Source: a virus | DNA length: 64,000 nucleotides | Direction: 5' to 3' (one strand) | IMG/VR virus record: IMGVR_UViG_3300044797_000396 | Coordinates: 26,551-90,550 of that record | Part shown: one piece after another, positions 26,474 through 60,633 of the stretch | Position numbering within the stretch: the stretch's first letter is position 1 | Layout: each line of letters opens with the position of its first letter | Program-made: the position numbers and the translations under genes | The notes under the pieces: generated by a model | Databases searched by the model: none | What the model saw: the letters and a program-made list of their open reading frames with translations, nothing else | What the model was told of the DNA's origin: nothing

Positions 26474-26665
26474 ATGCCAAACTACTTATATGAATGTCCA
26501 ATCCACGGAGAATTTGAGCACGAACATTCCATTACAGAACAATTAGAGTTTTGCCCTACTTGCCCTGACTTGGGTGGTCGTCCAAAAGTTAAACGACTAA
26601 TTGCTAGTGGCACCAACTTTATTTTAGGTGGTAGTGGCTGGGCCAGAGAGGGATATTCCAAGTGA
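26474..26665 (+). CDS. FmdB-like zinc ribbon protein, short paralogue
   Basis: 63 residues: MPNYLYECPIHGEFEHEHS, CPTCPDLGG, VKRLIASGTNF. It is the same ribbon as the upstream protein without the helical tail, so a tandem duplication is likely. Confidence 0.78.
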   Translation: MPNYLYECPIHGEFEHEHSITEQLEFCPTCPDLGGRPKVKRLIASGTNFILGGSGWAREGYSK

Positions 26666-48318: not shown

Positions 48319-49029
48319 ATGGATTTCGATAGCTACATCAGAGGGTTATTAAACGAGGTGGAAGGGCTTTTTGGCACTAAGCCTCAGTCTGCCCCAACCC
48401 GCGTCAGCCAGAACCCTATAAATTCTCCCGGAGGCTATACGGCCCCAATCCACGGTTCTTGGGCTTCAAGCGGGGGCTTTACGTATCAACCCAATGCTAC
48501 CCACCCCAAAGGGCATATGGGAGTTGATATGCGTTGTCAGGCAGGTACGCCCGTCTATCCCTTGACCTCAGGGGTGGTAACCAATGTAGGCACCGATCCT
48601 ATGGGCGGCAATGTAGTCAATGTCCAACATGCCGATGGTATCAGGACTTACTACGCTCATTTATCTGTGGCTAGGGTGCAGAAAGGCGATCGTGTTACTC
48701 CCAATACTGTTTTAGGATTAGTGGGAAATACAGGTAACGCCAGCCACACGGTACCACATTGCCATTTTCAAGTGTGGAAAGATAATCAAATTCAAGACCC
48801 CGCCAACTATTTTCATATCCCGCCCTACACTAATTTAAGTGCAGAAGAACGACAACAACCAAAGTGGGTTTCCGAACAAGCCAAGCAAGAGGCCCTTGCT
48901 TTCAATATGCAGGAGCATGTAGCGCAAGGGCGTGTGGCTGGAAATCGTGTGGCATTTTCTACCAATGCAGATAAACTATTAGTGCTATCTCATCAGTATT
49001 ACAAGCTTACAAAAAAGCTTTCAACTTAA
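48319..49029 (+). CDS. M23 (LytM-type) peptidoglycan endopeptidase
   Basis: 236 residues. KGHMGVDMRC gives the HxxxD zinc ligands, and VPHCHFQVW the HxH pair, with GNVVNVQHADGIRTYYAHLS in between: a complete LytM lysin. It cuts peptide cross-links in the cell wall. A helical C-terminal region (about 175-236) may attach it to the virion. No signal peptide. With the GH25 muramidase at 17193 the phage has two wall enzymes of different bond specificity. No SD; a -10-like GATATT sits right upstream. Confidence 0.9.
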   Translation: MDFDSYIRGLLNEVEGLFGTKPQSAPTRVSQNPINSPGGYTAPIHGSWASSGGFTYQPNATHPKGHMGVDMRCQAGTPVYPLTSGVVTNVGTDPMGGNVVNVQHADGIRTYYAHLSVARVQKGDRVTPNTVLGLVGNTGNASHTVPHCHFQVWKDNQIQDPANYFHIPPYTNLSAEERQQPKWVSEQAKQEALAFNMQEHVAQGRVAGNRVAFSTNADKLLVLSHQYYKLTKKLST

Positions 49030-49207
49030 CTACTCTTTTTATTTCATCTTGTGTATATGATATTCCATTGATTGTCCAACGTTCAATGAGACGATGATAT
49101 CTAACACCTTCTTGGCACTCCAAACACACCAGCGTTGAGACAGCTGGCAAACTTTCCCAAAGTAATGGACAGCAACACAGCGGGCAAAAAGTAATATCGT
49201 CATTCAT
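49007..49207 (-). CDS. Zinc ribbon protein with KLKAFL tail
   Basis: 66 residues. CPLCCCPL and CLECQEG form the ribbon. WTINGISYTQDEIKRVVKLKAFL ends it, with a strand then helix pattern shared with its two upstream neighbours. It is convergent with, and overlaps, the M23 gene by 23 bases. Together with the genes at 49208 and 49417 it forms a tandem paralogue set. Confidence 0.82.
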   Translation of the reverse strand: MNDDITFCPLCCCPLLWESLPAVSTLVCLECQEGVRYHRLIERWTINGISYTQDEIKRVVKLKAFL

Positions 49208-49417
49208 TTACAAAAAAGCTTTCAATTTAATCAATCGCATCATTTCTTCTTGGGTATAAGTAGTCCCATTGTATCTCCAATAAGCGGGCCCAACATAGGC
49301 AGGTGGTATCCACAATATCACATTATCATTGCATTGCTGACATTTCCACCTTTCATACCCAGAGGAAAATGTTTCAATATACATTTTCCAATGACATAAA
49401 GGGCACCAACGCGACAT
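49208..49417 (-). CDS. Zinc ribbon protein with KLKAFL tail
   Basis: 69 residues. CPLCHWKM and CQQCNDN pairs, then WRYNGTTYTQEEMMRLIKLKAFL. Starts on the last base of the upstream stop. Paralogue of the flanking genes. Confidence 0.82.
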   Translation of the reverse strand: MSRWCPLCHWKMYIETFSSGYERWKCQQCNDNVILWIPPAYVGPAYWRYNGTTYTQEEMMRLIKLKAFL

Positions 49418-59007: not shown

Positions 59008-59062
59008 TTTTTTTATGGCATAATTGTGCATAATGAATAGTGTTTTGCAACAAGGATACCAA

Positions 59063-59638
59063 ATGTCAAAAGCCGACACACTTCTCAAAAAAGCCACCTC
59101 ATTCGAGAGACTAGCCCTATACTCTGATCGTAAAGCTTTTCTACAAGCTTTGGCACAAGATGCAGGATTTGGTCTAGAACCAGTTAAGCAATACTTGAAC
59201 TTAGATGAATTCGGCAAACCAAAAGCACAAGGTCTCCCAGCAGTTCCAGCAACTCCGGGAGCCCCAGCCGCCAAACCATATGATATGCCAGTCACCAATA
59301 TCACTGGTAAATACCCAACCGTTAGAAAAGAGCAGCAGGAAGCGCTCAGCCGTGTTAACAGCTATGAGGGCATTGGAAATCCTATTACCGTAGACGGTAT
59401 CTTAGGGCCAGAAACCGCAAACGCCTGTCAGTTATTCAAGAAGAAGTTTGATCCAACTAACAAATATAATCTAACAAATCAAAAAATTCTAGATTGGGCA
59501 GAAATGCTCGCCGATGAACCCAAATATAAACTAATGGGGCCACAAACTACCCCTCCTCATAAAGAAATGAACATGGATGAGATCGATAACGAATTCAACA
59601 AAATGAAGTTTGATCCAACTAACAAATATAAAACTTAA
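59063..59638 (+). CDS. Protein with peptidoglycan-binding-like repeat
   Basis: 191 residues from ATG 59063, chosen because AAGGA lies six bases upstream; earlier in-frame starts lack this. The N-terminus is helical (SFERLALYSDRKAFLQALAQ). A Pro/Ala linker follows. VDGILGPETANACQLFKKKF matches the PG_binding_1 loop. KFDPTNKY occurs twice, once at the very end. Likely a wall-binding or virion-associated protein. Confidence 0.68.
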   Translation: MSKADTLLKKATSFERLALYSDRKAFLQALAQDAGFGLEPVKQYLNLDEFGKPKAQGLPAVPATPGAPAAKPYDMPVTNITGKYPTVRKEQQEALSRVNSYEGIGNPITVDGILGPETANACQLFKKKFDPTNKYNLTNQKILDWAEMLADEPKYKLMGPQTTPPHKEMNMDEIDNEFNKMKFDPTNKYKT

Positions 59639-59642
59639 TATA

Positions 59643-59749
59643 GTAAAGGTTGCTCAGCACCGTAAAGACTGAGACTTGGGCAGTCAAGCAAGCGCTCCTA
59701 TCGGAGATCCGCAAGTTCGATAGCAAACACATATACCTTAGCTTTACGG
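59643..59749 (+). ncRNA. Candidate structured RNA (multi-helix, riboregulator-like)
   Basis: No coding frame is convincing here, but helices stack up: CTCAG/CTGAG (59653-59657 with 59669-59673), CTTG/CAAG (59675 with 59685), CTATCG/CGATAG (59698-59703 with 59718-59723), and an outer GTAAAG/CTTTAC (59643 with 59742). The hairpin-1 loop CCGTAAAG (59660-59667) can instead pair all eight bases with CTTTACGG (59742-59749), which would block the terminator just after. Helices are exact by inspection; covariation and expression are untested. It does not fit a tRNA or a known riboswitch I recognise. Confidence 0.5.
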
Positions 59750-59791
59750 GCAGCGATGATAAATTAGTCACTGCCCGTATTTTTTATTTTT
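59745..59791 (+). terminator. Intrinsic terminator
   Basis: TACGGGCAG (59745-59753) pairs perfectly with CTGCCCGTA (59771-59779) across a 17-base loop, followed by a run of T interrupted once by A (to 59791). The best Rho-independent terminator in the window. An upstream GGGCAGT (59678-59684) could also pair with ACTGCCC (59770-59776). Confidence 0.85.
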
Positions 59792-59803: not shown

Positions 59804-59831
59804 TTGCGCTTCTACATCGCGTGGTTATACT
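59804..59831 (+). promoter_or_regulatory. Weak promoter candidate TTGCGC-16-TATACT
   Basis: TTGCGC at 59804-59809 and TATACT at 59826-59831 lie between the terminator and the next gene. If real, that gene would be transcribed independently of the structured RNA. Confidence 0.35.
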
Positions 59832-59853: not shown

Positions 59854-60633
59854 ATGAAGCGTGTAGTCGCCCTAATTTTTACAATTTTATTTTTAATCTT
59901 AATTTGTGCCCCGGCCAGCTCCCAAAATAGAGAAAATTCGCGTGAGTTAGTGGCACAAGAATTGCACACCGCTCTTATAGAAACGCCGCATTGCCCCGAT
60001 AATATGGTGGAAATTGATGGCGATTATTGTCCCAACGTACAAGAAATTTGTTTGAAATGGCTTGACACTACCCAAATGAGATGCGCAGAATTTAAGCAAC
60101 CATCTACCTGTTTATCCAAGGAGCGTAAGCATCTACATTTTTGTATGTCCAAATTTGAATATCCTGGAACGGAGGGAAGTTATCCTTTGGTAGGTATGGA
60201 TTATTACGAAGCTAAGGAAATTGCCGAAAAAGACGGTAATCGCTTATGCACCAAAGAAGAATTCAATTTTGCCTGCGAAGGAGAAGACATTCATCCGTAT
60301 GGATATGGAGATGGATTTCATAGAGACAGCAATATTTGTAATATAGATAAGCCTTGGATAGATTATGGTAAGTTTGATCAATCAAGCTGGAATGATCCGG
60401 GAGGTGGGCTGTATCAAGCAGTTAGATCAGAAAGTGTAAGTTTATGTAAATCAGATTTTGGAATTTACAATCTAAATGGTAATGTTGATGAAATTTTAGA
60501 TTCCGAGCATAGTAAAAATGTAGTCTTGTCTGGCGGATATTGGTCTACGGTTAGGTCGCGATGTCGCCCAACTACCGATGCACATAATAAATATTTTAGT
60601 TTCTATCAAATAGGTTTTAGAGAGTGTAAATGA
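59854..60633 (+). CDS. Secreted FGE/SUMF1-fold protein
   Basis: 259 residues. Residues 1-24 are a clear signal peptide (MKRVVALIFTILFLILICAP then ASSQ). Then DGDYCPNVQEIC and an FGE-type body: FEYPGTEGSYPLVGMDYYEAKEIAEKDGNRLCTKEEF, LNGNVDEIL and SGGYWSTVRSRCRP...GFREC. FGE-fold proteins oxidise sulfatase Cys or act as C-type-lectin-like binders. Paired cysteines suit an exported protein. The catalytic Cys pair of true FGE is not obvious, so a binding or non-enzymatic role is more likely. An envelope-directed phage product is unusual. Confidence 0.75.
   Translation: MKRVVALIFTILFLILICAPASSQNRENSRELVAQELHTALIETPHCPDNMVEIDGDYCPNVQEICLKWLDTTQMRCAEFKQPSTCLSKERKHLHFCMSKFEYPGTEGSYPLVGMDYYEAKEIAEKDGNRLCTKEEFNFACEGEDIHPYGYGDGFHRDSNICNIDKPWIDYGKFDQSSWNDPGGGLYQAVRSESVSLCKSDFGIYNLNGNVDEILDSEHSKNVVLSGGYWSTVRSRCRPTTDAHNKYFSFYQIGFRECK

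Follow-up and report, generated by a model that had tools for sequence, protein, structure and literature searches.

To our knowledge, the catalogue of noncoding RNAs from huge phages is short. In phiKZ, an RNA of ~100 nt derives from the 3' UTR of PHIKZ298 and contains two stem-loops, the second of which is possibly a terminator (Gerovac et al. 2021, PMC8545117); this RNA was confirmed by Northern blotting and has no mapped start site (PMC8545117). The putRNA of phage HK022, of about 70 nt, is also made of two stem-loops and acts without a protein, binding RNA polymerase and suppressing termination (PMC9378689). Here we describe a locus on the plus strand of a 64,000-nt stretch of viral DNA (the window; positions 26,551 to 90,550 of IMG/VR record IMGVR_UViG_3300044797_000396), at which the interval 59643-59791 lies between a gene coding for a 191-aa protein and a gene for a secreted protein with an FGE-sulfatase domain. 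The presence of a structured RNA in this interval is well supported, and its two-hairpin fold, which is previously undescribed, differs from the one first drawn there from the window alone. From comparative analysis, the locus probably yields a ~110-nt phage small RNA derived from the 3' UTR of the upstream gene; whereas the existence of the structured RNA is observed, its function we infer.

Results

The locus and its relatives

The 90.5-kb viral record from which the window is taken carries a PhuZ-tubulin-like gene, a DnaB-like helicase gene, a ribonucleotide reductase gene and PhoH-like genes, and its source is therefore a large phage. The protein encoded at 14245-15606 matches the PhuZ tubulin profile (PHROG 4733, E 2.8e-9). 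Elsewhere in the window, adjacent open reading frames on the minus strand carry at their 3' ends a pair of 73-nt direct repeats (49007-49280) that lie 201 nt apart and are 75% alike. The interval had no BLASTN match in 50,697 phage records, and syntenic loci were gathered by searching with the neighbouring proteins because the FGE protein, used as query, did not find relatives. Pattern searches of viral contigs at first matched only L003 with an exact pattern; a looser pattern again matched L003, L007 and L008, together with one GTDB contig (L014, a Sphingomonadales MAG), which was judged by its sequence to be a chance match.

The syntenic loci come from huge-phage contigs in IMG/VR of up to 481 kb, a collection that may omit near copies of the window's phage. 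Directly 3' of the homologue of the upstream gene (59063..59638, plus strand), the element was found in ten distinct relatives (L003, L007, L008, L020, L023, L024, L030, L031, L105 and L111, with L006, which is the same as L003, counted once), so that the window makes 11. It was missing at the more distant relatives L009, L010, L011, L028, L104 and L113, and L029 retains at most a degenerate remnant; the RNA is therefore not essential to the wider group. The upstream gene is syntenic in all RNA-bearing relatives and has no Pfam or PHROG match. In 11/11 sequences the RNA directly follows its stop codon, within the 3' UTR, and ends in an intrinsic terminator, the first helix (P1) lying about 6-30 nt from the stop codon once an insertion in the window is allowed for; in L024, P1 overlaps the stop codon, starting within the coding sequence.

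Within the upstream protein, the N-terminus (LLKKATSFERLAxYxDRKxFLxALAQ, window 59063-59170) is far better conserved than the remainder and may serve as a propeptide or in targeting; in L010 and L105 it also occurs in a second copy of the gene. Toward the end of the gene, a 33-nt direct repeat (94%; 59437-59469 and 59599-59631) reflects a duplicated stretch coding for FDPTNKY, and L003 is without the extra copy and ~34 residues around it.

A conserved fold of two adjacent helices

The conserved architecture comprises adjacent helices P1 and P2, an unpaired linker and the intrinsic terminator, in all ~115 nt (window 59676-59791). P1 (59678..59697) pairs GGGC at 59678-59681 with GCTC at 59694-59697 around the 12-nt loop AGTCAAGCAAGC; its consensus is GRRC/GYYC, with a 12-nt loop in most members, and across the 11 sequences it shows compensatory changes in 4/4 pairs with 95.2% of cells paired (GGGC/GCTC, GAGC/GCTC, GGAC/GTCC, GAGT/ACTC, GAGG/CCTC, GGAT/ATCC and GGGT/ACCC), although it is only 4 bp long and is degenerate in L105 and L031. 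P2 (59698..59723) pairs CTATC at 59698-59702 with GATAG at 59719-59723 and is extended in the window by G59703-C59718 to CTATCG/CGATAG (59698-59703/59718-59723), a helix absent from the pairings spelled out in the preliminary description. Its consensus is CTRYC/GRYAG, its loop ends in a conserved AGTTC, and compensatory changes occur in 3/5 pairs with 100% of cells paired in the 11 sequences (CTATC/GATAG, CTACC/GGTAG, CTGCC/GGCAG, CTGTC/GACAG and TTATC/GATAA). The loop consensus is AGUUANGUAAG in P1 and AGGUCNGUNAGUUC in P2, with the sequences AGTTANGTAAG and AGGTCNGTNAGTTC kept in most members. The linker (59724..59744) contains, in the alignments, a moderately conserved ACACATATACCTTAGCTT.

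Several lines of comparison recover this fold. RNAalifold, run on four sequences, arrived at P1, P2 and the terminator without guidance, and in six cores aligned with MAFFT, an alignment that was not fitted to the model, 54/54 cells pair and double changes occur in 5/9 pairs. In the alignment of all 11 members, which was fitted to the model and so leans towards it, 97.9% of cells pair versus 82% in shuffles, compensatory double changes occur in 7/9 pairs, the covariation score is 0.58 versus 0.25 in shuffles (a value reached by no shuffle), and slid controls collapse. The preliminary description had placed a structured RNA of regulatory type here and had named a covariance search as its check; the covariation of P1 and P2 bears it out on this point, in the 7/9 compensated pairs of the 11 members. 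Folding of the whole interval is not unusual relative to shuffles (z -1.42), and the conserved part, from 59674, gives z -2.97, with three relatives at z -2.6 to -3.4.

A covariance model built from six members (R1) recovered sequences left out of its construction, namely L031 (E 7.8e-7), L024 (1.1e-4), L111 (2.7e-10) and L105 (2.7e-9), and matched L023, also left out, weakly (E 0.065). The model of 11 members (R2) gave a single strong match per genome, always at this locus, so the RNA is single-copy, and it gave no strong match among 18 other records. Weak model matches elsewhere were treated as chance; the one inspected, G010:112864 (R1, E 0.006), lies inside an open reading frame and was gone with R2. 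No Rfam family matched at its gathering score, the best weak matches having E about 0.5, and a tRNA or tRNA-like cloverleaf was unsupported by ARAGORN or the Rfam tRNA model. A pseudoknot in which UAAG of the P1 loop would pair with CUUA of the linker was rejected by inspection, being possible in some members but missing in several; CsrA-type GGA loops and lambda boxA were, by eye, not conserved.

A single copy that invariably accompanies the same gene and the same terminator, together with conserved loops that suggest a ligand, would suit an element that acts only in cis, within the 3' UTR, by protecting the message from 3'-exonucleases or by mediating feedback from the upstream gene's product, with no small RNA set free. 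Simple protection, however, needs no conserved loops, because the terminator hairpin alone suffices, and the RNA loops have remained similar among relatives whose upstream-gene proteins differ greatly. We regard this explanation as plausible but doubtful.

Complementarity to the terminator is peculiar to the window

The terminator itself (59745..59791) is formed by the stem TACGGGCAGCGAT/GTCACTGCCCGTA, followed by T6AT5, with a perfect 9-bp stem at 59745-59753/59771-59779; it is as strong as first described, and a terminator of 11-14 bp with a T-rich tail lies 3' of the RNA in 11/11 sequences, its stem sequence differing among them. Two complementarities to it had led to the initial proposal that mutually exclusive helices switch the terminator, as in an attenuator or riboswitch, to control the FGE gene. 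Both are exact in the window: CCGTAAAG (59660-59667) is complementary over 8 bp to CTTTACGG (59742-59749), and GGGCAGT (59678-59684) over 7 bp to ACTGCCC (59770-59776). Among shuffles of the upstream part, 1.9% pair with the terminator at two or more places over at least 7 bp, and 3.5% do so at least once over 8 bp; the complementarities are thus nominally unusual in one sequence, but they were chosen after the fact.

Neither of the two antiterminator pairings extends beyond the window sequence. In 9/10 relatives the best pairing to a terminator arm reaches 4-5 bp, which is chance level, and in L030 it reaches 6 bp. GGGCAGT is the 5' strand of P1, and its complementarity to the terminator depends on the window phage's own terminator. 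The hairpin first numbered 1 (CTCAG..CTGAG, 59653-59673), which carries CCGTAAAG in its loop, is real in the window but belongs to an insertion of ~31 nt (59644..59674) outside the conserved RNA, a segment that is a gap in L003, L007 and L008 and has no counterpart in the other relatives. Taken with the independent promoter of the FGE gene past the terminator and the lack of an FGE match at the locus in L007 (see below), this makes a terminator switch extremely improbable. The switch, read from a single sequence, is an artefact of that sequence, and the real conserved fold, in the same place, is a different one.

Transcription signals on either side of the RNA

Promoter motifs, and the distance from the upstream gene to P1, were judged by inspection. 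The next gene (59854..60633, plus strand) does encode an FGE-fold protein with an N-terminal signal (PF03781, 51 bits), as had been noticed, and it forms a separate transcription unit. Its promoter (59804..59831) consists of TTGCGC-16-TATACT within GTGGTTATACT, and this sequence or a close variant precedes the next ATG by 15-35 nt in the window, L003, L007, L008, L020, L024 and L111. Since this promoter lies between the terminator and the next gene, the mRNA of that gene would not contain the RNA. The FGE gene is found at this locus in the window, L003, L008, L020, L024 and L029; in L007, FGE is unmatched at the locus, where the RNA is still there and the next gene is p60630. The RNA is thus not a leader of the FGE gene, and the hedge in the preliminary description that it may be a small RNA proves the better reading, the promoter after the terminator being conserved in relatives. 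The FGE-domain protein, whose N-terminus is signal-like and whose versions in several relatives look like lipoproteins, may be a cell-surface accessory protein, its gene being unmatched at the locus in some relatives.

A second, very conserved element, CTCGACAAA-N4-TGGGGGATCTATAGGGGGA, lies 3' of the RNA's terminator in most relatives and is not present in the window (L007:6630, L008:5762, L020:6749, L024:6172, L031:8398, L105:5377, L111:5398 and others). It occurs in about 3-6 copies in larger genomes, on both strands and often 50-110 kb apart, with 5 near-identical copies in one 433-kb record, and a reversed control pattern had almost no matches. In some cases it stands before a gene and in others against the direction of its neighbours, and a role as phage promoter, operator or segregation site is conceivable.

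Upstream of the 191-aa gene, a GCATAAT-N-GTATAAT-like motif occurs in the same place in most relatives; in the window it is GGCATAAT..TGCATAAT (59017..59034, plus strand), a promoter-like motif from which the unit ending in the RNA would be transcribed. From the stop codon to P1, no sigma-70-like promoter site is shared across the 11 sequences. This bears on whether the RNA comes from a small-RNA gene in its own right, driven by a promoter located either between the stop codon and P1 or at the upstream gene's 3' end. A defined 3' end and a covarying structure are what such a gene would have, and its promoter could be of an unrecognised kind, used by a phage polymerase or sigma factor; yet the 11 sequences have no promoter-like motif in common upstream of P1, whereas both neighbours have shared motifs, and in L024 P1 starts in coding sequence. 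An independent gene thus appears quite unlikely. Because promoters are conserved for both neighbours and none between the stop codon and P1, and given the overlap in L024, the RNA is most simply the 3' end of the upstream mRNA.

Discussion

Small RNAs freed from the 3' ends of mRNAs are typically terminator-ended, covarying fragments with conserved loops. We lean, with somewhat better than even confidence, towards the explanation that P1, P2, the linker and the terminator are the structured 3' end of the upstream mRNA in this clade of huge phages and yield a 3'-UTR-derived small RNA. The upstream mRNA would start at the gene's own promoter and end at the terminator, and a ribonuclease would cut it near the stop codon, freeing a stable small RNA whose 3' end is U-rich. 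The conserved loops of P1 and P2 may then be the sites at which it contacts a protein or pairs with target mRNAs, and the terminator may also insulate the upstream unit from the one downstream (FGE or p60630), which has a promoter of its own.

Another view of the two helices is that they act on RNA polymerase rather than as part of a released small RNA. In a put-like antiterminator, the two adjacent hairpins would make RNA polymerase read through the terminator into the next unit. The overall shape resembles that of HK022 putRNA (PMC9378689), and a terminator follows the RNA in every case, but putRNAs are found close to early promoters and their stems are long and indented (PMC9378689), whereas here P1 has 4 bp and P2 has 5 bp, and the element comes last in its unit. 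The downstream genes keep their own promoter, and readthrough is therefore not needed; we judge antitermination of this kind very unlikely. The broader notion that P1-P2 is a new clade-specific device, acting on RNA polymerase or on a phage-encoded protein and not by base pairing, covers put-like antitermination as well as a dedicated ribonucleoprotein in this huge-phage clade, and we consider it improbable. The 3'-UTR-derived small RNA stays our preferred reading. Its expression and function have become testable, given 11 members that share one locus, a model for searching and a structure backed by covariation.

Among known systems, attenuators and riboswitches resemble this locus in that an intrinsic terminator immediately follows a structured RNA, but the RNA described here has no conserved competing helix, lies outside the leader of the downstream gene and has no Rfam match. 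HK022 putRNA shares two neighbouring hairpins in a phage transcript, here predicted, and differs in location, stem length and conservation pattern. Like the bacterial 3'-UTR-derived small RNAs (PMC9438474), the RNA would derive from the 3' end of an mRNA, closes with an intrinsic terminator and has unpaired stretches that are conserved; unlike them it is phage-borne, and Hfq or ProQ binding is not part of the likeness. The closest parallel is with the PHIKZ298 RNA of phiKZ: whereas that RNA was seen on Northern blots, the one at this locus is known from sequence alone, and here two helices precede the terminator, but both RNAs are about 100 nt long, lie in a jumbo-phage intergenic region that follows a stop codon, and are built of stem-loop plus terminator with no start site of their own (here, no shared site was found), so that the likeness is one of size, place and architecture.
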